IMG/VR virus record: IMGVR_UViG_3300033153_005776
Coordinates: 1-27,770 of that record
DNA from: a virus
Direction: 5' to 3' (one strand)
DNA: 27,770 nt
The notes beneath the pieces are model-generated. The model saw nothing but the letters and a program-made list of their open reading frames with translations. It was not told the DNA's origin and made no database searches. Positions 1 through 27,770 of this stretch are shown here, one piece after another; the stretch's first letter is position 1, and each line of letters begins with the position of its first letter. Both the position numbers and the translations under genes were made by a program.

Positions 1-683
1 CCGGTATTGGAAATAAGAAAATATATGAAAAACGTTATGTAGAATTAAATCCTTTACAGAAAAAGATATATAAAGAGATAGAAAAAACGTTTGAGTATGA
101 AGATAAAGATGGTAATTATATAATGACAAAATTTGTTCCGGTAAAATTAGGCTGGATGCAAAGAGTCTGTGGTGGATTTTCTCCTAAGGAAGAACATTTA
201 TCTGATGCAAAAATAATAGAAATTAATAATTTATTAAAATCAGAATTAAAAAATCAATCAATTGTAATCTGGTTTAAGCATACTTTAGAGATGGAAAGTG
301 CTTTACTTTATTTAGAAAATAGAAAATATAAGTGCGCATTTTATAATGCTAATAAGAAAGAAGGGGAAAAAGATTTCAAAGATGGAAAGAAACAAATTAT
401 GTTAGCTCAGCCAATGTGCGGAAAATACGGATTAGATTGGTCAGTAGCGAGTACAGCAATTTACTACAGTAATTGGTGGAGTACGGAAGTCAGAGCTCAA
501 ACGGAAAAAAGAATAGAACATCCGAAAAAGAAACAACCTCTTCTTTATATAGATCTACTTTGCCGCAAAACAATAGATGTTGATGTTCTTTCTGCAGTAA
601 GATCCAAACATAAAACCTCTAAAAACTTCTTAGAAAGCGTTTTAAAAAGCTGGAGGAAACGAAATGATATACGTACCAGGTAA
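1..683 (+). CDS. SNF2/DEAD-like helicase, C-terminal part (5' end outside window)
   Basis: The reading frame is open from base 3 to the stop at 681-683 with no upstream stop, so the start lies left of the window. The first residues contain an ELNPLQKKIYKEIE stretch, typical of the linker before the second RecA-like domain of SNF2-family helicases. Later motifs fit helicase C-terminal motifs: IVIWFKHTLEMESAL (strand and helix after motif IV), MCGKYGLDWSVASTAIYY (motif V-like) and STEVRAQTEKRI, a degenerate motif VI (the usual form is Q...GR..R). Phage proteins of this type are ATP-driven DNA translocases or remodellers used in replication or recombination. The ATP-binding N-terminal half is not visible, so activity cannot be judged. 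The downstream gene starts inside its last 20 bases, which suggests translational coupling. Confidence 0.8.
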   Translation, partial: GIGNKKIYEKRYVELNPLQKKIYKEIEKTFEYEDKDGNYIMTKFVPVKLGWMQRVCGGFSPKEEHLSDAKIIEINNLLKSELKNQSIVIWFKHTLEMESALLYLENRKYKCAFYNANKKEGEKDFKDGKKQIMLAQPMCGKYGLDWSVASTAIYYSNWWSTEVRAQTEKRIEHPKKKQPLLYIDLLCRKTIDVDVLSAVRSKHKTSKNFLESVLKSWRKRNDIRTR

Positions 684-1182
684 ATTTGTTTACTATCACA
701 TCCCAAAAACAGGCGGTAGTTGGTTTATTTTAAATTGCCAAGCTAATATTAAAGAAGAAATATATCTTGGTGATGATCCGCACTGGACGAAAGATATGTT
801 TAAAGAAGACAAAAATAAATCGTTATGGAATAATATTAAAGATCTTCCTTCTGTAGCATTCGTCCGCAATCCGATAGACTGGTATATGTCATATTGGTCT
901 CATAAATGCAAAGAAGGTTGGGCAAAAGATAGAAACGTTTGGTGGTATAATACATATTTAGGTAAAGATTTTAATGATATAAAATATATCTTAAGGCAAG
1001 AAGATTGTCGTAAACACTCAATGTGGCTTCTCGACTATACAGAAACAAAATACGATGTACAAAAATTTAGAAACTTCCCAAAGAATAACATAGGTAACTA
1101 TTCTAAAATAGCTTATCCGGAATACTTAAAACATGGAATCAGGTTTGCGGAAAGAAAAATTTTTGAAGCATTCAATTATTAA
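664..1182 (+). CDS. sulfotransferase-like P-loop protein
   Basis: This 172-residue protein begins with YYHIPKTGGSW (residues 10-20). That matches the 5'-phosphosulfate-binding loop of PAPS-dependent sulfotransferases. VAFVRNPIDWYMSYWSH (64-80) matches the 3'-phosphate-binding motif, with R68 and S76 as the expected contacts. Family members move a sulfuryl group from PAPS to a sugar, lipid or protein. At 172 residues it is short compared with the usual 220-300, so the acceptor-binding part may be reduced. The start is set by GGAGG at 651-655, inside the end of the helicase gene, and the resolvase gene follows 10 bases after its stop. Its place among replication genes is unusual and gives no substrate. 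The motifs support the fold well; the activity is inferred. Confidence 0.72.
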   Translation: MIYVPGKFVYYHIPKTGGSWFILNCQANIKEEIYLGDDPHWTKDMFKEDKNKSLWNNIKDLPSVAFVRNPIDWYMSYWSHKCKEGWAKDRNVWWYNTYLGKDFNDIKYILRQEDCRKHSMWLLDYTETKYDVQKFRNFPKNNIGNYSKIAYPEYLKHGIRFAERKIFEAFNY

Positions 1183-10478: not shown

Positions 10479-10943
10479 ATGAGAACACAAAAGGAAATTC
10501 TGGAAAAACTAAAGGAAATAGAAGAAACAAAAACTGATCCGTTTAGAGTTCAGTTTGAAATTTTAGTTCATAAATTAACATGGGCAAACGCAAAAGATAA
10601 ATATGTAAATCCAAAATACCACGACACAGAACATAGGCAACGCTGGAGAAAAAGAGCCAAGCTGGATTTGAAGGCTCTGGAAGAAGAAATACAGGAACTT
10701 ATAGATTCTATGGCGTGTTCTTATTTTGATAAAGATTATCAAAAACTTTTAGCACAATTTCACTGTACCATTGCTTTTTTATGGTTGATGGGACCGAAGA
10801 AAGATACTTTTCTAAAATATATATTTAAGTCCATGCAGAATTTTCAAGAAGATGGAGGTTATGTACTTATGAGAATGTTATGTTATAACTTTGATGTCGA
10901 ATGGAAAATAATGGAACTCCGCTATGGAGGGTTAGGTAATTAA
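10479..10943 (+). CDS. hypothetical protein, 154 residues, helical
   Basis: I do not recognise this protein. It appears all-helical, with a charged N-terminal half (RTQKEILEKLKEIEETK, then HRQRWRKRAKLDLKALEEE) and a more hydrophobic C-terminal half (FHCTIAFLWLMGPKK, then YVLMRMLCYNFDVEW). The hydrophobic segment is short and interrupted, so it is probably buried rather than in a membrane. It is the last gene of the plus-strand operon. Its TAA (10941-10943) overlaps the TAA of the opposing minus-strand gene (10940-10942). Confidence 0.65.
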   Translation: MRTQKEILEKLKEIEETKTDPFRVQFEILVHKLTWANAKDKYVNPKYHDTEHRQRWRKRAKLDLKALEEEIQELIDSMACSYFDKDYQKLLAQFHCTIAFLWLMGPKKDTFLKYIFKSMQNFQEDGGYVLMRMLCYNFDVEWKIMELRYGGLGN

Positions 10944-10962
10944 GGAAGCCTACCCTCCCATA
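10923..10962. terminator. hairpin over the converging stop codons, possible bidirectional terminator
   Basis: TATGG/AGGGT/AGG (10923-10936, one base bulged) pairs with CCT/ACCCT/CCATA (10949-10962, one base bulged). This gives about 13 base pairs around a 12-base loop that contains both stop codons. It is the only structure between the two converging operons. Neither strand has a clear T-tract after it, so it is not a textbook intrinsic terminator. It may slow polymerases or protect 3' ends. Confidence 0.45.
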
Positions 10963-11662
10963 CTAATTCTATTCCTGGATCTGCTAAGATGGAAGCAGGG
11001 TAACATTTATTAGCTGCACCACCTCCGAAAAATCCAGGGTATATTTTTTGAATAGCCCAACACACACCTTCCGAACAAAAATATTTACGTTTACTATGGT
11101 GAAACCATCTAGATACAAAAGCTAAAATTCCTCTACCATCGTATCTTAAATTATTCAAGCTATTATAAAAACAGTTTATTTTGTATCGATATTTATTATC
11201 ATAGCCTTGATAAATGTCATTGTTTAACTTTACTATTTTAATGTACTTTCCAGAATAATATTTTGTAATGTCAATCCAGTTAGAACGCGGAGGGTTTATT
11301 CTTACGCTGTGAGGTCCACCACTTAGAATTTCAGCGTGTGTATACAGACAATTTTTTATGTTTAGTGAGGCGTTAAGTTGGGTACGGTAAATAGCTTTTC
11401 CAAAAAAATCATTTCCTTTGTGGGGTTCGTATTTACTTAAAAGTATATATCCCATCTTCGGCACGTCTAAAGTAAATTTTTCCATTTTTTTTAAGTCTCC
11501 TCTTAATTTAAATGCCATAGTTTCTGCCACAGCAAGATCAATACGTTTTGCTATTTTGCCTAAAAAATGTTCCGCGTTTTTTATATCCTGGGCTAATTTT
11601 ATTAAGTTTATATTAGCTATCTCAAAATCACCGCGTTCCCTACTAGGCTGATACTGGTTCAT
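10940..11662 (-). CDS. permuted papain-like (YaeF/YiiX- or NlpC/P60-related) cysteine enzyme
   Basis: The 240-residue protein has a helical N-terminal segment (1-65) and a C-terminal region resembling circularly permuted NlpC/P60 enzymes. MGYILLSKYEPHKGNDFFGKA (70-90) is the typical start strand, LYTHAEIL (106-113) holds H109, and YDGRGILAF (174-182) precedes KYFCSEGVCWAI (193-204) with C196 as nucleophile and E198. His before Cys is the order of the permuted fold. Known members are amidases, peptidases or acyltransferases. As the last gene of the tail operon it could be a cell-wall enzyme carried on the tail or used for lysis; there is no signal peptide and no clear holin beside it. Its start overlaps the end of the previous gene by 20 bases. 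Confidence 0.6.
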   Translation of the reverse strand: MNQYQPSRERGDFEIANINLIKLAQDIKNAEHFLGKIAKRIDLAVAETMAFKLRGDLKKMEKFTLDVPKMGYILLSKYEPHKGNDFFGKAIYRTQLNASLNIKNCLYTHAEILSGGPHSVRINPPRSNWIDITKYYSGKYIKIVKLNNDIYQGYDNKYRYKINCFYNSLNNLRYDGRGILAFVSRWFHHSKRKYFCSEGVCWAIQKIYPGFFGGGAANKCYPASILADPGIELVWEGRLP

Positions 11663-17947: not shown

Positions 17948-18499
17948 TTAAACTCCAGTTCTTATAATTTTGAACTTTTTCTTACTTGCTGCTAAAGCAT
18001 TTCCTTCAAAATCCAACGAACCTTCTAGCACGTCAAATTCAAAAGGGAATTCATGCATGTCTGTTTCCTTTAACGCAATTGCCAACTCTCCTGAACCTTC
18101 AGCTTTAAAAATATGAAGGTCAATAGTTGAACCGTCTGGTTGGATATGAACAAACCTTAACGCGCGGTTGTTATTATCTACGTCTCCACCAAACTCAAAT
18201 ATTTCATCCGCTCCACTTATGGATGTAATACCTGCGCCTACAGCATATGCAATGTTGTCTAAATTCCACTCAATTCCAGTAATCTTTAGAGTAAGATTTT
18301 CTTCAACAGCATACTTTTTAATTAGCGTTTGAGGACTTCCCTGCTTAACTTCTAAGGGAACTCTTTGGATAAGGACTTCAACATCTCCTTTCACTGCTCC
18401 AATGTCCGTAGTTGGAGTTGTTCCTAATGCTCCAAGATATAAAATCCCTGGACCAAACGAAAAACGTCCTTCTTCATGTGCTGGTACATTTACTGCCAT
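17948..18499 (-). CDS. major tail (tube) protein
   Basis: This 183-residue protein is predicted to be mainly beta, with PGILYLGALGTTPTTDIGAV at the start, then VEVLIQRVPLEVKQGSPQTL and LTLKITGIEWNLDNIAYAVG. These match the tail tube layout of many siphophages, in which subunits form the hexameric rings of the tube. It lies between the tail terminator and chaperone genes, as expected. The ribosome binding site AAAGGAGG is the strongest in this region, in keeping with high expression. There is no Ig-like or other C-terminal extension. It would be a plausible acceptor if the phage's glycosyltransferases modify its own tail, but that is inference. Confidence 0.85.
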   Translation of the reverse strand: MAVNVPAHEEGRFSFGPGILYLGALGTTPTTDIGAVKGDVEVLIQRVPLEVKQGSPQTLIKKYAVEENLTLKITGIEWNLDNIAYAVGAGITSISGADEIFEFGGDVDNNNRALRFVHIQPDGSTIDLHIFKAEGSGELAIALKETDMHEFPFEFDVLEGSLDFEGNALAASKKKFKIIRTGV

Positions 18500-18739: not shown

Positions 18740-19168
18740 TCACAAGGCTAAAAAGTTATATACCGCTGGAAAATGATATAGGGACGTATCGTCTTCGTAC
18801 ATTACTGGTCCGCTCGAAGTTTCCAGGCTATTTAACGCTGTTAAAGATAACGCTGTATCCGTTAATTTTTGCCTATGCAGCAAGGCCCTAATTTTACCAT
18901 AAGCCAGCATAACATCTTCAACTGTAAATTTATCAGAAGGAAACCATAAATCTACCTGTATATTTACAGCTATAAGGGTATCTAATGAGGACTGCGCTCC
19001 TCCTGACAAAATGTGTAATGAGACAGCAGGATAAACAGGTTCATGAATTAAAGAAATATACGCTCCATATACTCTTTTTTTAACGTACGTATTTAAATCC
19101 GTATCTGCTGTCAATACCTTTCTTATCTTCTCTACTATTTTTTGCTCTGCTGTAGGTGTGAATACCAT
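18740..19168 (-). CDS. tail terminator / tail completion protein
   Basis: The 142-residue protein fits the tail terminator family (gpU/DUF3168 style). It has an N-terminal helix (TPTAEQKIVEKIRKVLTADT), then beta strands (YPAVSLHILSGGAQ, AVNIQVDLWF), a helix (VEDVMLAYGKIRALLHRQ) and the final strand pair (TSLYHFPAVYNFLAL). Such proteins cap the tail tube and dock it to the head. It is directly downstream of the HK97 gp10-like gene, which is the usual order. Confidence 0.78.
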   Translation of the reverse strand: MVFTPTAEQKIVEKIRKVLTADTDLNTYVKKRVYGAYISLIHEPVYPAVSLHILSGGAQSSLDTLIAVNIQVDLWFPSDKFTVEDVMLAYGKIRALLHRQKLTDTALSLTALNSLETSSGPVMYEDDTSLYHFPAVYNFLAL

Positions 19169-19171
19169 AAA

Positions 19172-19660
19172 TTACCTCAATGTAAATGTTAAACCTTTTA
19201 ATTGTGTACGTATTAATACAAAAGCTATCGCGCGTACTTGATTCCCACTGCCCTGGAGAACAGGACGCGGTATCATTTTACTGGTACCAAAAATTACAGG
19301 TAACACATGTGCTGCTTTTGTTTCGTCCAATAGAACATTTGCAGAAGCTTGAAGTCTTCCCCCAGCAATAGAAGCTTTCGTAGTAAATGCTCTTTTAGCA
19401 GATAACAACTTACCAGACTGTTTATGTACTTGATAATTTGGGTTATGTAAACTCTTACCCGCTCTACCGTGCTTTGTAGCATAAGGATGGCCTAATATTT
19501 TTAAATCTTTTAAAGAGTGATCTGTTAAACTGATATTCTCAGTAACTTTCTTATCCAGAATTTTAAGTATACCCTCCATAACAACATTAGTATGGCGTAC
19601 AAATCCTCCGCCAAATCTAATTATATTCGCTGCTACTAATCTTTGTCCTGTTACGGGCAT
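19172..19660 (-). CDS. HK97 gp10-like neck / tail completion protein
   Basis: The 162 residues show the HK97 gp10 pattern: a helical start, then DHSLKDLKILGHPYA, the KQSGKLLSAKRAFTTKASI segment with the usual strand-turn (often SG.L..s), the HVLPVIFGTSKMIPRP turn, and a final helix (NQVRAIAFVLIRTQL). This fold bridges the connector and the tail. It comes directly after the large glycosyltransferase gene (start 2 bases from its stop), so the sugar gene and the neck gene share one transcript. Confidence 0.78.
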   Translation of the reverse strand: MPVTGQRLVAANIIRFGGGFVRHTNVVMEGILKILDKKVTENISLTDHSLKDLKILGHPYATKHGRAGKSLHNPNYQVHKQSGKLLSAKRAFTTKASIAGGRLQASANVLLDETKAAHVLPVIFGTSKMIPRPVLQGSGNQVRAIAFVLIRTQLKGLTFTLR

Positions 19661-19661
19661 T

Positions 19662-22082
19662 TTAAATTACCTTTTTACATCCTTCTGAATTTTCATTTAA
19701 ATAATCTAATATTTTTATAGCTTCATTTCTATATATATGATCTACTGGTATAGTATCAATAGTATGCTGTAAATATTTTTTAGCGCTCATAATATTTAGA
19801 GCAGCAAGTTGTTGATGAGCATGCCAAAAATTAGGATTAACTTTTACAGCTGTCTGTAAAGACTCTAAAGCTCTCTCTGTTTGATCGTCATTCAAATAGT
19901 GAAGAGCCAAATTATAATACGGTCTTGCATCCAATCCTTCAGTTATTTCAATTTGTCTTTTATTTAAATCTTCATAATAATCTAACTTAGTTCTTAAACG
20001 TTTTTTATCTTTTCTAAGGTATCCAAAATGCAATAAAGGAAAATTAGCCTGCCCAAAATGGCCTCGTATCTTTTCACCTCTTGCCGCAATTGCACTGTCC
20101 AAAGTTTCATGAATTACACCGGAATAATAATACTCAGGAATATTTTTAAACATACGTACAGATTCGGTAGACGCATATCTCGGCGGGGTATTTCCTGTAG
20201 GTCTTTCTAAATAATTAACCACATGAAATTTAATAAACTCATAGGAAGTTTCTGTTAACTTCGCCAGATTAATCATATCTTTAGGTCCAAACCGTTCATC
20301 CGCATCCATATGTAATATCCAAGGATGAGAAGCAAGAGACTTTCCAAAATTCCGAGGGATAGAGTAATTATTCACCCATGGATGCGTAAATAACTTAACT
20401 GTAACAGGGCTATACTTTCTAAACTCTTTTATAATTTCTAAAGTTTTATCCGTTGAGCCTGTGTCTATAATTACATACTCATCAACTAAATATTGCACAT
20501 GCTCTAAACAACCCTGTAAATATTCTTCCTCGTTTTTAATCATCATGACCAAAGATACTTTATTATTTTCTCTATATTCCTGTATTTCTGGATTAACAGA
20601 AATTAAATGAGAATAATCTTCATATCCAATATCGGCTTTTGATTTAAAATTGTCATTAGCTTGATAGAACTCATATTTTTTCTGACGTTGTTCTGGAGTA
20701 TCATATCCCATATGTTTTACTCGGATATTTAAGTGCTGTAAGTTCTCTTCTGAAAAAGCAGGCGCGCTTCCACAATGATGACCTTCGGGATGAGTAGAAG
20801 TAATCTCTTGATTCTTCAACAGCTTAAAGAATCGATAATTTGCAAACGTACCAAAAGTAGAATCTGTTCTATAATACTCCACACCTAATTCTTTCTTCCA
20901 GATAGTTCTCCACTGGCACCAGTAACCCATTATCTCAGGATTTCGAGGATTCATATATGATTGAACTCTTTCAGCAAACTTATCCTCGTAAAATTCATCA
21001 TCGTCAATCGATATACACCAGTCGGCTAATCCTTGTTCTTTTAATTTCAAAGCCTCTTGAAGTAACCAATTACGTTCATAATCCTCTTGAAATATCCCAT
21101 CATACCATTCTATTTTTATAAGCTTTGGAAATTTTAATTGTAAATATGTTTCGTAACTCGTTCTGTCAAGTTTAAGATTCCCTTTAAAACTCTCATTCGT
21201 ATCTAAATTTATATACCGTGAATCCAGAACAATAAACTCTTGAGGAGCTCTACAAAAATGAATAATAATATTGTCTGCAAATTTAGAAGTTTGTTCTAGG
21301 CTCTTCTCTAAATATTCTCCTCCGTTCGTACGATACAAAGCTACTAATTTTTTAGGTGTCGGCTTGTACCATTTATCATAATATCTTTGTCTATTTTCTT
21401 CACCCTTATCTTTATATTCCTCTGGTGTTAAAGTGTGTCGCAAAGTACCTTGTCCTTTATGATATATGTACGTATCGTATGCCACAATAAGTTTATAACC
21501 TGCATGCTGAATACGAAGGCATAGGTCATTATCTTCGTGACTGTTTTCGAATCGTTCGTCAAAACCCCCTACTTCGTCTAAGATCTTTTTAGGAATCATC
21601 ATACACCAACCGTATAAAATTCCCGCGTGAGACCATCTTCCTTTATATTGTTCATACCATTCAGCAGCGTTTTGATGACCAACGTATTGTTTACCGTTTG
21701 AAGCACAGGTTACTGGACCGACCATTCCAATATTGCTAAGTGGAACTTGGTTAAAATGTTCACACATATTGTCCAGCCAACCTTCGTATACTTCCGTATC
21801 GTTGTTTAAGAATACAACGTATTCACCTTCGGCTAGTTGTAGACCGATATTATTATTCACAGCAAACGTATTTATATTTTCACAAGTTACAACTTTAATT
21901 AAACCTTTCGAAGGTTGTGTCTCTAGTCCGACTAAATACTCTCGTGTCCCATCTGTAGAAGCATTATCAACTATAATAAACTCATAATCATTTGAATGTG
22001 CCTTAACACTCTTAATACATTTTATAGTATCTTCTAGCGAATTAAATGCGACTGTAATAATTGAAAACTTTGGTTTGGACAT
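19662..22082 (-). CDS. large multi-domain glycosyltransferase (GT2 + GT-like + GT2 + TPR)
   Basis: The 806-residue protein holds three glycosyltransferase-like units. Unit 1 (about 1-240) is GT2: FSIITVAFNS start, FIIVDNASTDGTREY, metal motif NNDTE (93-97), and the catalytic HEDND (182-186) with YHKGQGT. Unit 2 (about 245-490) is more divergent, with WCISIDDDEFYED (355-367). Unit 3 (about 508-700) is GT2: SLVMMIKNEEEYL, VIIDTGSTDKT, LHMDADERF. A TPR-like helical tail (about 720-790) includes ARPYYNLALHYLNDD and LESLQTAVKVNP. GT2 enzymes move sugars from nucleotide donors, so this single protein might build an oligosaccharide. It is embedded between head-tail genes, and GGAG precedes its ATG. 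The acceptor is unknown. Confidence 0.85.
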   Translation of the reverse strand: MSKPKFSIITVAFNSLEDTIKCIKSVKAHSNDYEFIIVDNASTDGTREYLVGLETQPSKGLIKVVTCENINTFAVNNNIGLQLAEGEYVVFLNNDTEVYEGWLDNMCEHFNQVPLSNIGMVGPVTCASNGKQYVGHQNAAEWYEQYKGRWSHAGILYGWCMMIPKKILDEVGGFDERFENSHEDNDLCLRIQHAGYKLIVAYDTYIYHKGQGTLRHTLTPEEYKDKGEENRQRYYDKWYKPTPKKLVALYRTNGGEYLEKSLEQTSKFADNIIIHFCRAPQEFIVLDSRYINLDTNESFKGNLKLDRTSYETYLQLKFPKLIKIEWYDGIFQEDYERNWLLQEALKLKEQGLADWCISIDDDEFYEDKFAERVQSYMNPRNPEIMGYWCQWRTIWKKELGVEYYRTDSTFGTFANYRFFKLLKNQEITSTHPEGHHCGSAPAFSEENLQHLNIRVKHMGYDTPEQRQKKYEFYQANDNFKSKADIGYEDYSHLISVNPEIQEYRENNKVSLVMMIKNEEEYLQGCLEHVQYLVDEYVIIDTGSTDKTLEIIKEFRKYSPVTVKLFTHPWVNNYSIPRNFGKSLASHPWILHMDADERFGPKDMINLAKLTETSYEFIKFHVVNYLERPTGNTPPRYASTESVRMFKNIPEYYYSGVIHETLDSAIAARGEKIRGHFGQANFPLLHFGYLRKDKKRLRTKLDYYEDLNKRQIEITEGLDARPYYNLALHYLNDDQTERALESLQTAVKVNPNFWHAHQQLAALNIMSAKKYLQHTIDTIPVDHIYRNEAIKILDYLNENSEGCKKVI

Positions 22083-22098
22083 CTTATGTCTCCTTGGA

Positions 22099-22719
22099 TT
22101 AATGTATTTTTACTATTTCTGATTCTGTGTGATGTGTCGCACCCGCAAAGTTTATTAACTTCTCTGACAGGTGAACTTGTCCTAATGTAAAACCTGACAT
22201 TCCAGATTGTACGTATACTAAATCATTTTCTTCAACGTCTGAATCTGGTTCACTTATCATGCCGTAATCTGCTACTTTTTCCTGTCCCTGTTTCATCATT
22301 TTAATAGCGATACGCCCTTGGCCTCTTGCGCTACCCTGGTATCTAAAAAACCGAACAGCCATACTATCTTGCACGGTTTTTTCCTGGTTTATAGATTGCC
22401 CCATTTTATCTACCGCGCGCACATCTACAAAACCATCATCAATACCGCTTAAACTTATCCCTGAAATAGTTGTAATGTTTTGTACGCCTATTTCTATTCC
22501 ATCAGCTGTAAAATTAAAACTCTCGTTCACATTTCCAGCTATATCTACAACCCCTGTTGTCGCAATCGTAGCTCCTACAATTGTAACTTCAAGTCTGGAA
22601 CTTTCAATCGGTTGACGATCCACTGTTGGATTTGGTGAAACCGCTACCTTCTCTAATAAGAACGATGTGTTCCGTTTAAGATTGACAACAGCTGTCAGTA
22701 TGTTGGTTACTTCGCTCAT
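22099..22719 (-). CDS. unknown beta-rich protein, possible virion component
   Basis: I do not recognise this 206-residue protein. The start is helical and the rest is Gly/Ser/Thr/Val-rich with alternating strands, for example LEVTIVGATIATTGVVDIAG, FTADGIEIGVQNITTIS and DGFVDVRAVDKM. A positively charged section (FRYQGSARGQGRIAIKMM) and a final strand (LVYVQSGMSGFTL) follow. It lies between the two glycosyltransferase genes in the head-tail region, where a head-tail stopper or small decoration protein might be encoded, so it could be either. It starts inside the end of the GT4 gene (44-base overlap) with only a weak Shine-Dalgarno, so translational coupling is likely. Confidence 0.6.
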   Translation of the reverse strand: MSEVTNILTAVVNLKRNTSFLLEKVAVSPNPTVDRQPIESSRLEVTIVGATIATTGVVDIAGNVNESFNFTADGIEIGVQNITTISGISLSGIDDGFVDVRAVDKMGQSINQEKTVQDSMAVRFFRYQGSARGQGRIAIKMMKQGQEKVADYGMISEPDSDVEENDLVYVQSGMSGFTLGQVHLSEKLINFAGATHHTESEIVKIH

Positions 22720-23725
22720 GTTTAATATCCCATTTTTTTAAAACTTCTTTATACACATCTTGATAATTTTGTGACATAACCGCTGCATCATATTTATCCT
22801 TTACCCAATCCCTGGAAATACCACTAAGTGCGTCTTGATAATTTGTATCTAGGGCCTTTAAAGTCCCTTTTACCAGACCTGCTATACTTCGATCTGTAAG
22901 AATTGAATATCCTGCTATAAGTTCCTGGTTAACTTCATTATCATATGAAACAACTACGCACCCGCTATACATAGCCTCAATTAACACTAATCCAAAGCCT
23001 TCTGTTGGGCTAGGATATAAAAATACTTCCATCAGCTGTAAATAATTAGCTATATCGTCCGTAGTATCAACCCACACAATATCCTTAACGGGAAGTGATG
23101 CAGCCAGCAATTTTAGCTTGCCTCTATACCCGTTACAGCCTCGAGCTTCTCCACCGATAACCATAGGAGTAAATATAACGCCCTGTTTCTGTAACTCGTA
23201 ACATGTTAAAATCCAATCCTCTAAACCTTTGTCTCTTCCCAATCTTCCCAGCCGTCCTACAATAGGTATTTCTGAATCAATACCTAATTCTTCAATAACT
23301 TCAGCAGGCGTTTTTGTAGGTATCATATCTGAAAAAGCAAGTCCATTGTGTATTGTTTTACAATTGCTGTTCATTCTGGATACCACATCTGTAACACCTA
23401 TTCTTTGCGTAATTGTCATATTACTCATAGGAGACCGCACTGGAGAGTGAATCGTTTCTACAATAGGAAACCGCGTACTTAATTGATGTGCCAATTGACT
23501 TATACCGCCTCCGGTATGAATATGAATTACATCCGCATCTACGCCTACGTCCTCATCACAAGCCAAAATTATTTTAGCCCCGGCGTCTTCTAGTTTCTTT
23601 TTATATGTGCCGTCTTTATAAGCTACAATCGTGTGTTCATTCTCAAGATCATATTCGATAATATTCTTGATTACTTTTTCCACACCGCCGTGATCGAGCT
23701 GAGTTAGTTCATGTACTATTTTCAT
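22676..23725 (-). CDS. GT4 family (GT-B) glycosyltransferase
   Basis: The 349-residue protein has the two-domain GT-B pattern. The N-terminus MKIVHELTQLDHGGVEKVI is the Gly-rich acceptor-side loop of GT4 enzymes. DVIHIHTGGG (65-74) and VETIHSPV (89-96) are the typical His strands. The second domain opens with IPIVGRLGRLGRDKGLE (153-169), and PSPTEGFGLVLIEAM (238-252) contains the E-x7-E signature (E242, E250) that binds the donor nucleotide sugar. It follows a methyltransferase gene and has a strong GGAGGG site. Like the large GT2 protein, it probably modifies virion proteins, the host surface or DNA; the substrate cannot be read from sequence. Confidence 0.88.
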   Translation of the reverse strand: MKIVHELTQLDHGGVEKVIKNIIEYDLENEHTIVAYKDGTYKKKLEDAGAKIILACDEDVGVDADVIHIHTGGGISQLAHQLSTRFPIVETIHSPVRSPMSNMTITQRIGVTDVVSRMNSNCKTIHNGLAFSDMIPTKTPAEVIEELGIDSEIPIVGRLGRLGRDKGLEDWILTCYELQKQGVIFTPMVIGGEARGCNGYRGKLKLLAASLPVKDIVWVDTTDDIANYLQLMEVFLYPSPTEGFGLVLIEAMYSGCVVVSYDNEVNQELIAGYSILTDRSIAGLVKGTLKALDTNYQDALSGISRDWVKDKYDAAVMSQNYQDVYKEVLKKWDIKHERSNQHTDSCCQS

Positions 23726-23740
23726 TTTCCCTCCAGTTTG

Positions 23741-23753
23741 TGGCTCTAAGCCA
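23741..23753. other. small hairpin between methyltransferase and GT4 genes
   Basis: TGGCT at 23741-23745 pairs with AGCCA at 23749-23753 around a 3-base loop. It lies in the 32-base gap just upstream of the GT4 ribosome site. A 5-bp stem is weak and may be chance; no T-tract follows. Confidence 0.25.
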
Positions 23754-23757
23754 TCGG

Positions 23758-24411
23758 TTATTTTTTAATTAAGATTCCCATTCCTGCATCTTCAAGTGAA
23801 TGAAGTTCCAAACTATAAAGTTTATGATACCCTTCTGGGGTAAAAGATGCCCACCATTCCCACATTTGAGGTCTTTTATTCCAACTAACCCCATCAAATA
23901 AAATAACACTATCTTTTAATAAATATTTTTCCCACGCTTTAAAAGCTTTTTCCATGCTTGCTGGTTCATGTTCTACGTCTATAAACAGCAGATCTAAAAA
24001 ATCATAGTCAGAATCTGAAGAAAGTAATACTGCATCTTCATATATATACGCTACGTTTGATTGTGCACAACGGCTATCTAATTTATTTACAATATCTAAA
24101 GAGTACACAAAACCTTCAGGATTTCCTTTTGCCATGCACATAGCTGACACACCTTCACACGTTCCAAGGTCTGCCATATATTTCATTTTAAACTCTTTAG
24201 CTAAAAGATAAAGCAAACGATAATACCCAGCATCTCTGGGAGTCGGTCCAGGAGAATCTAATCCTACCAACCAATCGTACATTGCAGTTTTGTTTGCCCC
24301 GTCAATTAATCTTTTAACGTCTTCAAGGCGTGTAGATTTTGGCGCGATTACTTTCTTAACTACTTTTTTAATCGCTTTTTTAATTGTTTTTTTTTCAACT
24401 TTCCGTACCAT
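23758..24411 (-). CDS. class I SAM methyltransferase (Methyltransf_24/CmcI-like) with basic N-terminal repeat
   Basis: The 217-residue protein has a Rossmann methyltransferase core with motif I MADLGTCEGVSA (79-90), VYSLDIV (102-108) and LLFIDVEHEPASM with a later VILFDGVSW. This is the layout of the CmcI/Methyltransf_24 group, which includes small-molecule and sugar O-methyltransferases. The N-terminus has four tandem KKxx steps (KKTI KKAI KKVV KKVI, residues 7-22), a highly basic tail that could bind DNA, RNA or an acidic partner. It overlaps the previous gene by one base (TAATG). Next to two glycosyltransferases, O-methylation of a sugar is the most likely job, but that is inference. Confidence 0.75.
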   Translation of the reverse strand: MVRKVEKKTIKKAIKKVVKKVIAPKSTRLEDVKRLIDGANKTAMYDWLVGLDSPGPTPRDAGYYRLLYLLAKEFKMKYMADLGTCEGVSAMCMAKGNPEGFVYSLDIVNKLDSRCAQSNVAYIYEDAVLLSSDSDYDFLDLLFIDVEHEPASMEKAFKAWEKYLLKDSVILFDGVSWNKRPQMWEWWASFTPEGYHKLYSLELHSLEDAGMGILIKK

Positions 24412-24917
24412 TATCTTCTCCTTATAAATTCTAATATGAATAAATGTTTCTCAGGTAGTTCCAGATTACCTGAATCATGTTCAATTACACCACCTTGAAT
24501 TTCCCACAAATGAGTTTTTTCACCCAACCAATATTCTCCAATGGGTAAAGAAATTATTACTTTCTCCTTAGCTACTCTAAATAGTTCCGTCCAACCCTTT
24601 CCAGGATTTGCAATGTGTTCTAATACTTCTGTACCAACTGCCACATCAAAATAATTATCTTCAAAAGGTAAATCATTTATATCAGCATTCAATACGGTTA
24701 ACCCAAACATATTTTTAGCTTTCTCTATCTGTACAGGGTCATTGTCCACACTTACTACTATATTCCCTGCCTCTTGCAATCCCCTGGAAACAAATCCTTC
24801 GTTGCAACCAGCCTCTATAACGTTTTTATTCGTACCAACTCGATCAATAATATCTTGTATCCTCGTACGCATGCAAGGAACTCCATGCCAAAAATGTTCT
24901 TTCCAACTCTTTTTCAT
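24411..24917 (-). CDS. class I SAM methyltransferase (Methyltransf_11-like)
   Basis: The 168-residue protein is a compact methyltransferase. Motif I is VIEAGCNEGFVS (33-44). The acidic loop is VVSVDNDPVQIEKA (54-67), NADINDLPFED (77-87) binds the adenine side, and DVAVGTEVLEHI (91-102) is the typical motif IV/post-IV. The C-terminal half is short, so it may lack a complete substrate domain. It resembles sugar or small-molecule methyltransferases encoded with glycosyltransferases. It begins just downstream of the head-tail adaptor gene with a strong GGGAGGAA site. Confidence 0.8.
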   Translation of the reverse strand: MKKSWKEHFWHGVPCMRTRIQDIIDRVGTNKNVIEAGCNEGFVSRGLQEAGNIVVSVDNDPVQIEKAKNMFGLTVLNADINDLPFEDNYFDVAVGTEVLEHIANPGKGWTELFRVAKEKVIISLPIGEYWLGEKTHLWEIQGGVIEHDSGNLELPEKHLFILEFIRRR

Positions 24918-24920
24918 TTG

Positions 24921-25295
24921 TTATTCCTCCCCTCTAAGGGCTCTATCTCCGACGATTGTTCGGTAATTAAAATCAGTTAATACTGTTTCTGTGAATGCTT
25001 CGGCTGGCGCATTAGCGGCGGTTTCTTCGTAGGTCTGTGCTAACTCTCGAAGCGTTTTTGACATACCCCTTGGATCTTCTTCGTAATTCCCGGCCTTAAT
25101 TTTCTTTTCGAGAATAGCTTTATCAGCTGCCATACGCCTAAGAGCATCTGCTGAAGATAAATAAATATCATTAATTCGCAAGTCCAGAAATACTTGAATC
25201 TCTTCATCGGTTAATATTACATTAGCCGAATCCGTATCTCCGATTAAAGTTCTTACTTTCCCTATATTTGTACTTGTATCAAAAGTAAATGACAT
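24921..25295 (-). CDS. head-tail adaptor/connector (HK97 gp6-like)
   Basis: The product is about 124 residues from the ATG at 25295, which is preceded by TGGAGAATAAA. A TTG upstream at 25316 would lie inside a hairpin and is disfavoured. The sequence shows FDTSTNIGKVRTLIGDTDS, ILTDEEIQVFLDL, and helices LSSADALRRMAADKAILEKK. This is the four-helix pattern of gp6-like adaptors that sit under the portal ring. It follows the major capsid gene, the usual order. Confidence 0.75.
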   Translation of the reverse strand: MSFTFDTSTNIGKVRTLIGDTDSANVILTDEEIQVFLDLRINDIYLSSADALRRMAADKAILEKKIKAGNYEEDPRGMSKTLRELAQTYEETAANAPAEAFTETVLTDFNYRTIVGDRALRGEE

Positions 25296-25308
25296 TTTAT
25301 TCTCCAAA

Positions 25309-25337
25309 ATATACAAGGGTGGTTAGCCCTTGTATAT
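25309..25337. terminator. 11-bp hairpin after the major capsid gene
   Basis: ATATACAAGGG (25309-25319) pairs perfectly with CCCTTGTATAT (25327-25337) around a 7-base loop. On the minus strand it lies after the capsid stop and before the adaptor start, followed by only a short ATTTTGG. On the plus strand it is followed by ATTTTTT. It may act as a partial terminator that lowers expression of the genes after the capsid, or as an mRNA 3'-end stabiliser. Confidence 0.6.
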
Positions 25338-25361: not shown

Positions 25362-26327
25362 TTATCCCCCTCGAACAACACCTTGGTACATAGCGCGAGC
25401 CTTCGCCCAATCGTGCCGAACTTTAAAATTCAGGTCATCAAATTCATAACCCCACGGATCATCTCCGCCCCCAGCTGAAAATACTGCATCTGATTTTTGA
25501 ACTAACAAATCAGGCTCTTCTTTTCCATTCAAGAATCCCATTTCCCCTATCGGAGCATCTTCTGGAGTAGCCATCACGTAAAACTTGGTGGTACTCGTAA
25601 GGAATGGTTCTTTGACAACTTCAAGTCGAGTAACTTTTCCAACTTGAGTTGTACCGCCTGTCGTAGACACTGGGATAAACTGCTGTCCTTGTGTAATACG
25701 TAGTGCGGTGTCTTCCAAAGCCGAAGGAACAACAAGCATCTTTGCTTCAATGCCTAGCTTTTGACTTGCTTCATCTGTGGAATCTTCAACAGTTGTCATC
25801 ATTTCTGCAAGTAACGCAATACCAGCTGCATCATTTGTTAACGTTCCGGCAACTTTGTTACCGTGATCGTTATGAAATAACGTTTTACCATCATAACAAA
25901 AACCATCCGCTTCAAGAAGCTTTACAGCATCTTTTGCAATTGTGCGTCCAGTTGCTCGACCAAATCTTTCTGGTTGTTTAAGCAACTCTTTCGTATCATC
26001 GTTAATAATAGTTTCGCGGGTAATACTAAAAGTTCGTCCAAATGTTTCCAATTGGATAGCGTAAGATTGCTCTTCCACTGTTGAACCTTTGTAATTACCG
26101 CCTTCTGTTTTCTTAATAAGATCAGGAGCTTCTTCTAACCAATTTCTGTTGTGCGTTTTGAAATCAGCCATATCACCGCGCTCAAGATACTTACGCCAAG
26201 GTGAACTTACACCTTTAAACTTTCTAATTAACTTTTTGTGCATAACATCTGCTAAAAGTTTAGGAAAGTCTGAAGTAGAATGCGCTTCGTGTAGTTCCTG
26301 ATATATTTTAATTAATGATTTCCTCAT
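25362..26327 (-). CDS. major capsid protein (Mu gpT-like)
   Basis: The 321-residue protein fits the HK97-fold capsid of the Mu gpT family. FGRTFSITRETIINDDT (111-127) is the conserved block, followed by GRATGRTIAKDAVKLLEADG (141-160), FHNDHGN, the long central domain and a C-terminal KVRHDWAKARAMYQG. It forms the icosahedral shell. Whether a prohead delta domain is removed is not shown; the protease-scaffold gene is close by. GGAG before the ATG, the hairpin after the stop and the position after a decoration protein are typical of a highly expressed capsid gene. No transposase was found, so the gpT resemblance does not make this a Mu-like transposing phage. Confidence 0.88.
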   Translation of the reverse strand: MRKSLIKIYQELHEAHSTSDFPKLLADVMHKKLIRKFKGVSSPWRKYLERGDMADFKTHNRNWLEEAPDLIKKTEGGNYKGSTVEEQSYAIQLETFGRTFSITRETIINDDTKELLKQPERFGRATGRTIAKDAVKLLEADGFCYDGKTLFHNDHGNKVAGTLTNDAAGIALLAEMMTTVEDSTDEASQKLGIEAKMLVVPSALEDTALRITQGQQFIPVSTTGGTTQVGKVTRLEVVKEPFLTSTTKFYVMATPEDAPIGEMGFLNGKEEPDLLVQKSDAVFSAGGGDDPWGYEFDDLNFKVRHDWAKARAMYQGVVRGG

Positions 26328-26369: not shown

Positions 26370-26726
26370 TTATGATTGATCTTGTCCGACAGGTCGTGCT
26401 TGTGGAAGCAACAAACCGTCAAAAGAATTATCCGCTGCTTTCGCAGAAATTGCCTTAACTGCTGCGTAATCATCATTGGCCGAACCAATAGACAATGCTC
26501 CTGCAGTAGTATCCCAGTACAGAATCGTACCGGCATTTACAGTACCTTGACCACTAAATGTCATACCCCATACACCCTCTAGCGCGAACGCTACAGAAGC
26601 ACCAGCTAATCCATTTGTAATCGGGATACCGATAAATCCACGCTCTCTTTTTAATGCGCCTGAAGCTACATCATTTTCGATAGCTACGTGAACTCGTTTA
26701 CCTGAGAATTTAAAATTCTTTGCCAT
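26370..26726 (-). CDS. capsid decoration-like protein (DUF2190)
   Basis: The 118 residues contain FSGKRVHVAIENDVASGALKR (6-26), then GIPITNGLAGASVAFALEG, TVNAGTILYWDTTAGAL and VKAISAKAADNS. This is the layout of DUF2190 proteins, which lie next to the major capsid gene in many phages and are thought to stud or trim the shell. It has no enzymatic motif. It is separated from the protease gene by about 70 bases containing a weak hairpin and has an AAGGAAGG-type site. Confidence 0.78.
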   Translation of the reverse strand: MAKNFKFSGKRVHVAIENDVASGALKRERGFIGIPITNGLAGASVAFALEGVWGMTFSGQGTVNAGTILYWDTTAGALSIGSANDDYAAVKAISAKAADNSFDGLLLPQARPVGQDQS

Positions 26727-26797: not shown

Positions 26798-27274
26798 TTA
26801 GTCTTCGTCTTTATCTTTCTTTTTTTCATCTAAACCTAATCGACCACTTAACTCATCTACTAAGTTTTCTCTTAAGTCTTTATCCCCTTTTCCATCTCCA
26901 GCACCTGCACCTGTATTAGTTTTAATTTTGCCTTTAGTGCTAAAAGAATTAATGTAACCTAATTCTTCTTTCATGCTGGCATTTACCGCTTCAACTAATT
27001 TTTCTTCTGATTCGAAAGTCTTTTCACAAAGATCTTTCTTAACTCTTTTCTTCCCAACTTCTGGAAGAGAAGATTTCTCTAACAGTTCGTCAATCTTTAT
27101 AGATTGCTTCTCTGTTTTTCCTGCTTCCTGCAAAGATTTTACCTTTGCTTGACTTTCCTTTAGCTGGTCTTCTGTTGATTTAGTATTCAAATCTTTCTTG
27201 ATACTTTCAATCAAACCGTTATAAGCCTCCGGATTTTCCTTCTTTAGATCTGCTACTTTAAAATTTTCGTACAT
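26798..27274 (-). CDS. nested scaffold protein from an internal start
   Basis: An in-frame ATG at 27274-27272 is preceded on the minus strand by AGAGGAG and a 6-base spacer, an excellent ribosome binding site inside the protease-scaffold gene. The product would be about 158 residues, starting MYENFKVADLKK and consisting only of the helical, charged scaffold half. The arrangement mirrors the lambda C/Nu3 genes, where the scaffold is also made from an internal start. Confidence 0.55.
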   Translation of the reverse strand: MYENFKVADLKKENPEAYNGLIESIKKDLNTKSTEDQLKESQAKVKSLQEAGKTEKQSIKIDELLEKSSLPEVGKKRVKKDLCEKTFESEEKLVEAVNASMKEELGYINSFSTKGKIKTNTGAGAGDGKGDKDLRENLVDELSGRLGLDEKKKDKDED

Positions 27275-27770
27275 TTCAATCTCCTCTCTTCTGGATTCGA
27301 GTAATCGAGGAATTCTTCCACGCGCGCCGGCTTCTGTCACCCAATCTACTGATGCTGGACCGTTTTTCCGTTGCGGTATGATTTTCTCGACTATTTGCAT
27401 TTCCTGACCGTTTACCTTACCATAAGATATACGACCACCCATATTTATAGAAAGACCGATGTTCTCCTTAAAAGTAGGATCAGTCAGTCTTTCACGTAAC
27501 CACGGATCGTGAACAGCCACCGTACCGACAGCTTTGCCATTTTCTCCGCGAGATTCCGTAATAGTTGATGCCCAGTCTCGTACATCTCTTTCTGGGCGTT
27601 CTTTTTCTTCTTTCTTTGTCGGATGATTAATATACATTTTCAAACCTGCAAAATCTCCTGCAGCGCTTTCGACTACCGAAGAAGGATAATGTCTACGTTT
27701 AACTGGGTTTGTTCCAGCTTCTATAAAGATAACATTCTTAAGTTCCCCTGTATCTGGGTCATAATTAGCT
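26798..27770 (-). CDS. capsid maturation protease fused to scaffold (5' end outside window)
   Basis: The frame is open from the right edge, so the start lies beyond the window; a TTG at 27643 is not a convincing start because the upstream residues (VIFIEAGTNPVKRRHYPSS) match the usual protease N-terminus. GLKMYINHPTKKEE follows with a conserved His. IGLSINMGGRIS and GPASVDWVTEAGARGR are typical of phage head maturation proteases fused to scaffolds. The C-terminal half is helical and charged (VADLKKENPEAYNGLIESI onward) and looks like scaffold. The protease would cut scaffold and capsid in the prohead. The catalytic residues are not proven by eye. Confidence 0.75.
   Translation of the reverse strand, partial: ANYDPDTGELKNVIFIEAGTNPVKRRHYPSSVVESAAGDFAGLKMYINHPTKKEEKERPERDVRDWASTITESRGENGKAVGTVAVHDPWLRERLTDPTFKENIGLSINMGGRISYGKVNGQEMQIVEKIIPQRKNGPASVDWVTEAGARGRIPRLLESRREEIEMYENFKVADLKKENPEAYNGLIESIKKDLNTKSTEDQLKESQAKVKSLQEAGKTEKQSIKIDELLEKSSLPEVGKKRVKKDLCEKTFESEEKLVEAVNASMKEELGYINSFSTKGKIKTNTGAGAGDGKGDKDLRENLVDELSGRLGLDEKKKDKDED

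Follow-up and report, generated by a model that had tools for sequence, protein, structure and literature searches.

A virus record of 27,770 bases from IMG/VR (IMGVR_UViG_3300033153_005776), taken as a whole as the window of this study, carries four enzyme genes among the neck genes of its late operon, namely two S-adenosylmethionine (SAM) methyltransferases, MT11 and MT24, a GT4 glycosyltransferase (GT) and a multi-domain GT of 806 residues (aa). We consider it probable, judging from gene content and protein families, that they make up a late-expressed cytosolic system which attaches a glycan to a virion protein and finishes it with variable caps. This suggests a sugar coat on the phage's own particles, with a decoration differing from virus to virus. 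The virion is favoured as the target because of the position of the genes, their close packing, the kinship with protein GTs, the lack of membrane segments and the precedent of mycobacteriophage Corndog, and a protein acceptor is favoured because the C-terminal domain of the large enzyme is nearest to the polypeptide GTs GmaR and SunS, with TPR repeats placed as in GmaR.

An initial annotation of the sequence had placed the two methyltransferases, the GT4 enzyme and the 806-residue multi-domain GT2 protein on the minus strand, which is the late strand, and Pfam confirms all four in their places (Table 1). The gene order is adaptor, MT11, MT24, GT4, head closure (p206), 806-aa GT and Neck1; head protease, cement and major capsid protein (MCP) lie 5' of this block, and 3' of it follow Neck1/gp10-like protein, tail terminator, a 68-aa Cys-rich protein, major tail protein, chaperone and tape measure. 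From adaptor to Neck1 the genes are spaced by -44 to +35 nucleotides (nt), in agreement with the tight spacing and overlaps noted before; no gap in the block is big enough for an obvious separate promoter, and promoter-like sites occur at chance level (33 vs 30 +/- 6). The location of the cassette between the adaptor and the gp10-like gene was also borne out, except that it is not uninterrupted: p206 (206 aa), which had been overlooked, sits between GT4 and the 806-aa GT, with its start codon inside the GT4 gene, so that the GTs are interleaved with neck genes and do not form one closed cassette.

The start of p206 is backed by conserved first residues in relatives. It is probably a head-closure protein, as its homologues match phrog_615 (head-tail adaptor, 4.8e-5) and phrog_501 (head closure, 0.015); p206 alone has no PHROG or family match, and a PDB profile search with it gave nothing meaningful. 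Its N-terminal part is variable and beta-rich, and the minimal form, in the relative L128, has 115 aa. Compared by hhalign with the MinS1 DUF6093 protein, p206 shows no similarity. The adaptor role of the first gene is assigned by position, all its PHROG matches being of unknown function, and its true start is probably the ATG near 25295, not the TTG at 25316, because relatives begin with MSFTF or MSFSF. For the gp10-like gene, 5/8 homologues match phrog_5 ("tail completion or Neck1", best 1e-7), and the gene searched alone gave no match.

The 806-aa enzyme is composed of a GT2 domain (residues 1-240), a middle domain (245-495), a GmaR/SunS-like GT2 domain (505-715) and TPR repeats (about 716-762). 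The catalytic-type motifs FLNNDTE, SIDDDE and HMDADER look intact by eye, and so does EGFGLVLIEA in GT4. Compared as a profile with solved GTs, the C-terminal domain scores highest with GmaR (1e-30 to 3e-32) and SunS (4e-19), both above others, and TPR follows GT2 in the same order as in GmaR; that is, a GT2 catalytic domain homologous to GmaR/SunS is present together with a trailing TPR/helical region. The middle domain, carrying a DDDE motif, is the most conserved part of the enzyme (69% mean identity vs 51-53% in the other parts), and its weak hhalign similarity to the C-terminal GT2 (probability 32%, E 5e-4) makes a third GT-A domain plausible here. No membrane segment was found in the cassette proteins tested (no 19-residue stretch with a Kyte-Doolittle mean > 1.53), so that they are likely to be cytosolic.

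These features bear on two alternatives in which the target belongs to the host. It is unlikely, yet the best of the rivals, that a host surface polysaccharide (lipopolysaccharide or capsule) is modified while the phage infects or resides as a lysogen, so as to bring about superinfection exclusion or seroconversion. PHROGs indeed groups phage GT2s with O-antigen conversion genes, and the host of at least one relative, a prophage, carries lpxA/lpxC, which makes lysogenic conversion conceivable; however, segments like those of a membrane GT, flippase or polymerase are lacking in the cassette proteins tested, the block leaves no space for a promoter/terminator unit of its own as in typical morons and its promoter-like sites do not exceed chance, the interleaving with neck genes presumably confines expression to the late phase, and the C-terminal domain resembles protein/peptide GTs. 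Distinctly less probable is the glycosylation of a host cell-surface protein (flagellin, pilin or S-layer): the closest solved relative, GmaR, does act on flagellin, but the genes hold a late operon place beside virion genes in every genome, and there would be no point in altering host appendages at so late a stage of the cycle.

For named phages compared at the DNA level, no near relative of the window was seen, and single-protein scans of viral contigs with the 806-aa GT, MCP, DNA polymerase and GT4 as queries found nothing; alignment-based scans alone recovered the relatives, which are L006 (54% MCP identity), L087, L125, L126, L127, L128, L133, L134, the truncated L135 and, in a genome contig, L136. 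L088 and L132 seem to duplicate L006 and L133. Ten distinct genomes are counted, i.e., the window, eight IMG/VR phages and the prophage L136; L135 stops just past the adaptor, where a match to the MptE-like gene of L087 begins. The ten genomes have in common the layout of capsid, adaptor, variable slot, GT4, head closure, multi-domain GT and Neck1, and both GTs are kept at the same place in 10/10. Such an arrangement is not due to chance, because it recurs in nine other distinct genomes at GT identities of 43-59%. L126 and L127 were once taken to have a different capsid, which was wrong, their MCP lying further upstream, beyond genes inserted before the adaptor. In L126 (266-5059) these extra genes include an MptE-like/methyltransferase fusion and a radical SAM protein, and in L127 (436-4245) there are two large open reading frames (ORFs) with no match above Pfam's cut-off.

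The conservation of GT4 and of the 806-aa GT is close to that of the capsid, and both are under MCP-like purifying selection. Identities among relatives are 43-59% for GT4, 50-59% for the 806-aa GT and 44-61% for MCP; the best conserved virion proteins are the major tail protein (57-72%) and the cement protein (57-67%), the adaptor ranges from 43 to 65%, and tail-tip genes are poorly conserved. Between L133 and L134, the nonsynonymous divergence (dN) of the cassette genes is 0.13-0.18 at a synonymous divergence (dS) of 1.4-1.9, vs 0.12 at 1.6 for MCP, with dS near saturation. A search for related phages with and without the cassette, which had been proposed as a check, found the core GTs in all ten genomes; by contrast, 0/42 more distant MCP relatives, each with at least 6 kb of downstream sequence, have a GT/MT11/pyruvyltransferase-like match within 9 kb downstream, although very divergent enzymes could escape models built from the family itself. 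That the genes are passengers, horizontally acquired cargo having no virion role, is accordingly very improbable: the slot content turns over between relatives as cargo would, but the core GTs are retained in 10/10 with capsid-like conservation and constraint.

Between the adaptor and GT4, the slot holds MT11 and MT24 in the window; two MT24-like ORFs in L006, the first of which (121 aa) is short and has no Pfam match; an MptE-like protein, a radical SAM-SPASM protein and MT24 in L087 and L128; a polysaccharide pyruvyltransferase in L125; MT11, MT24 and a pyruvyltransferase in L133 and L134; MT11 in L126; MT24 and MT11 in L127; and MT11 with a pyruvyltransferase in L136. MT11 is thus common to the window, L126, L127, L133, L134 and L136 (48-54% identity), and MT24 evolves fast (28-39% among relatives). 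The Pfam family PF04230, whose pyruvyltransferases act on polysaccharides, is matched by slot genes of L125 and L133 (1e-13, 3e-12), with homologues in L134 and the prophage L136 and none in the window itself; neither the pyruvyltransferases nor the MptE-like protein matched anything in PDB. Because pyruvyltransferases of a polysaccharide family share the slot, its enzymes are best read as capping a glycan, i.e., as having a carbohydrate substrate. The glycan on a virion protein anticipated in the initial annotation is hence the best-supported reading, given the neck-gene position in 10/10 genomes, the GmaR/SunS-like GT2 with TPR, the pyruvyltransferases of the slot and the absence of membrane segments, but its methylation is only one of the slot's options, and the effects on host adhesion or on evasion of surface defences suggested there are conjectural. 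T4 glucosylates its DNA, and a similar hypermodification of phage DNA by glycosylation or methylation, for which a weak match of MT24 to a phage "DNA methyltransferase" PHROG (3.5e-4) might speak, is the least credible alternative of all, since pyruvyltransferases and radical SAM proteins swap in the same slot, the GT families are general GT2/GT4 in a late neck-gene position, and no thymidylate synthase/hydroxymethylase family gene (PF00303) occurs in 9 records, one of 95 kb, a weak point as all are fragments.

Several points weigh against virion glycosylation. The substrates of GT2 and GT4 enzymes are not readable from sequence, and the virion acceptor is a predicted one. The kinship with GmaR/SunS holds at the level of the family, and other targets are conceivable for GT2+TPR proteins; neither Pfam nor PDB offers a match to the middle domain; the structures predicted by AlphaFold for p206 and the 806-aa GT are unusably poor (mean pLDDT 40 and 39); and no sugar-nucleotide genes were identified in the fragmentary records, for which no systematic search was made.

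If a virion protein is nevertheless the acceptor, the 806-aa enzyme would bind it unassembled, through the TPR region and the conserved middle domain, and one GT-A domain, most likely the C-terminal GmaR/SunS-like one, would put the first sugar on a side chain. The N-terminal GT2 domain and the separate GT4 would then extend the glycan, and the slot enzymes would cap it, by two methyltransferases in the window and elsewhere by a pyruvyltransferase or an MptE-like protein plus radical SAM. The abundant major tail protein, the cement protein and the capsid protein are candidate acceptors.

Concerning the host, at least one member of the lineage is an integrated prophage splitting a tRNA-Arg(TCG) gene of a Candidatus Omnitrophota bacterium. 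The contig with L136, 71.5 kb long, belongs to a metagenome-assembled genome of this group, and its left part carries hisG, glmU, dnaB, lpxC-fabZ and lpxA, followed by a tyrosine recombinase and a repressor at 30-33 kb. Comparison of the tRNA site in L139, L144 and L145 places the first 43 nt of tRNA-Arg directly before the integrase (L139 9893-9935; G011:C62, about 29.9 kb). The related genomes G296 and G131 cease to be homologous at this fragment, and both hold an intact tRNA-Arg(TCG) there; integration is concluded from the split gene, the homology break, the intact counterparts and the kinship of LpxC-FabZ, which is 92% identical in a related genome. Among 285 genomes of the same phylum no second prophage was found, only one weak fragment match. 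This host evidence applies to L136, not to the window phage.

For the lineage, at least partly of Omnitrophota, we would also entertain, quite tentatively, a more specific scenario: protein glycosylation may be a core virion function, in which a fixed GT4 and an enzyme of up to three catalytic GT domains build a stem glycan, the middle domain recognises a conserved virion protein, and the slot offers a choice of caps (methyl, pyruvate, radical-SAM product). This would give the virion surface a chemical diversity like that of bacterial O-antigens or flagellin glycans. Virion glycosylation is known from few phages, and here the trait would be fixed throughout a whole uncultured lineage, its core conserved and its caps exchangeable; virion glycans would then evolve like bacterial surface glycans, and a candidate new protein-glycosyltransferase domain would be at hand. 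In addition, a prophage is documented in Candidatus Omnitrophota, a group with little phage biology in the literature searched.

Table 1. Features of the window, with the evidence for each.
Feature	Position	Strand	Basis
Head maturation protease	26798..27769, past window end (listed ORF 26798-27643)	-	phrog_15531 4e-11
Cement/decoration protein	26370..26726	-	PF09956 2e-9
Major capsid protein, Phage_capsid_4 / gpT-like	25362..26327	-	PF25209 9e-39
Strong RNA hairpin, MCP-adaptor gap	25309..25337	-	RNA folding z-scores
Head-tail adaptor-like gene, start of neck block	24921..25316	-	phrog_1732 9e-9, position
MT11, class I SAM methyltransferase	24411..24917	-	Methyltransf_11 PF08241 4e-16
MT24, SAM methyltransferase	23758..24411	-	Methyltransf_24 PF13578 8e-8
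GT4 (GT-B) glycosyltransferase	22676..23725	-	Glycos_transf_1 PF00534 3e-17
p206, probable head-closure protein	22099..22719	-	PHROG matches of homologues
Multi-domain glycosyltransferase, 806 aa	19662..22082	-	Pfam Glycos_transf_2 5e-44, Glyco_tranf_2_4, TPR
Middle domain of 806-aa GT	20601..21350	-	100/250 invariant positions in 8 genomes
gp10-like / Neck1 tail completion protein	19172..19660	-	phrog_5 matches of homologues
Tail terminator	18740..19168	-	phrog_78 0.007, position
Major tail protein, candidate acceptor	17948..18499	-	phrog_2175 (protein with Ig domain) 4e-10, phrog_117 (major tail protein) 0.005
Sulfotransferase beside helicase, early strand	664..1182	+	PF03567 2.5e-7

Among the other features, the hairpin between the MCP stop and the adaptor start is present in 8/8 genomes examined (window, L006, L087, L125, L128, L133, L134, L136), with a different sequence in every one and z from -1.9 to -5.0; perhaps it is an attenuator or an mRNA processing element, setting high MCP expression apart from lower expression downstream. 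The sulfotransferase of the early strand is a possible extra carbohydrate tailoring enzyme, with no counterpart found in the relatives' fragments. The last late gene (10940-11662, minus strand) resembles by eye the YiiX/permuted NlpC-P60 type (HAEI ... FCSEG motifs), a possible lysis or cell-wall enzyme with only weak PHROGs matches and no better family match.

Regarding known systems, O-antigen conversion by gtrABC differs from the window in both its marks, as the proteins tested have no transmembrane-like segment and the genes no transcription unit of their own. SunS of SPbeta, likewise a phage/prophage-borne polypeptide GT, has a similar GT2 and following helical region, but it is a single GT domain encoded outside the virion genes. 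SunS modifies a cysteine of a bacteriocin. The pyruvyltransferase genes in the slots of relatives match the PF04230 family and differ in standing within a phage neck-gene operon. GmaR of Listeria, a flagellin O-GlcNAc transferase with GT2 then TPR (PMC9638930), is, among solved structures, the one that the C-terminal domain matches best (E 3e-32), and shares this order; it has one GT domain and an antirepressor domain, whereas the phage enzyme lacks any antirepressor match and includes additional GT-like domains. Corndog, compared by its published description, carries an O-methyltransferase and GTs (gp35-gp38) between portal and protease, for which its authors suggested capsid modification (PMC4351075), and glycosylated proteins in Che8, Corndog and Myrna are as reported in PMC12363180. 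The actinophage precedent invoked in the initial annotation is therefore real, although no link by sequence to those actinophages emerged and one relative is an Omnitrophota prophage. The window shares with the Corndog/Che8 type GT genes among virion structural genes and, beside them, two methyltransferases that would act on the sugar; it differs from Corndog, an actinophage, in that its cassette lies among neck genes, and neither a multi-domain GT of this type nor an exchangeable pyruvyl/radical-SAM slot is described for Corndog. By this analogy, the block of the window is a putative new variant of the virion-glycosylation cassette described for Corndog.

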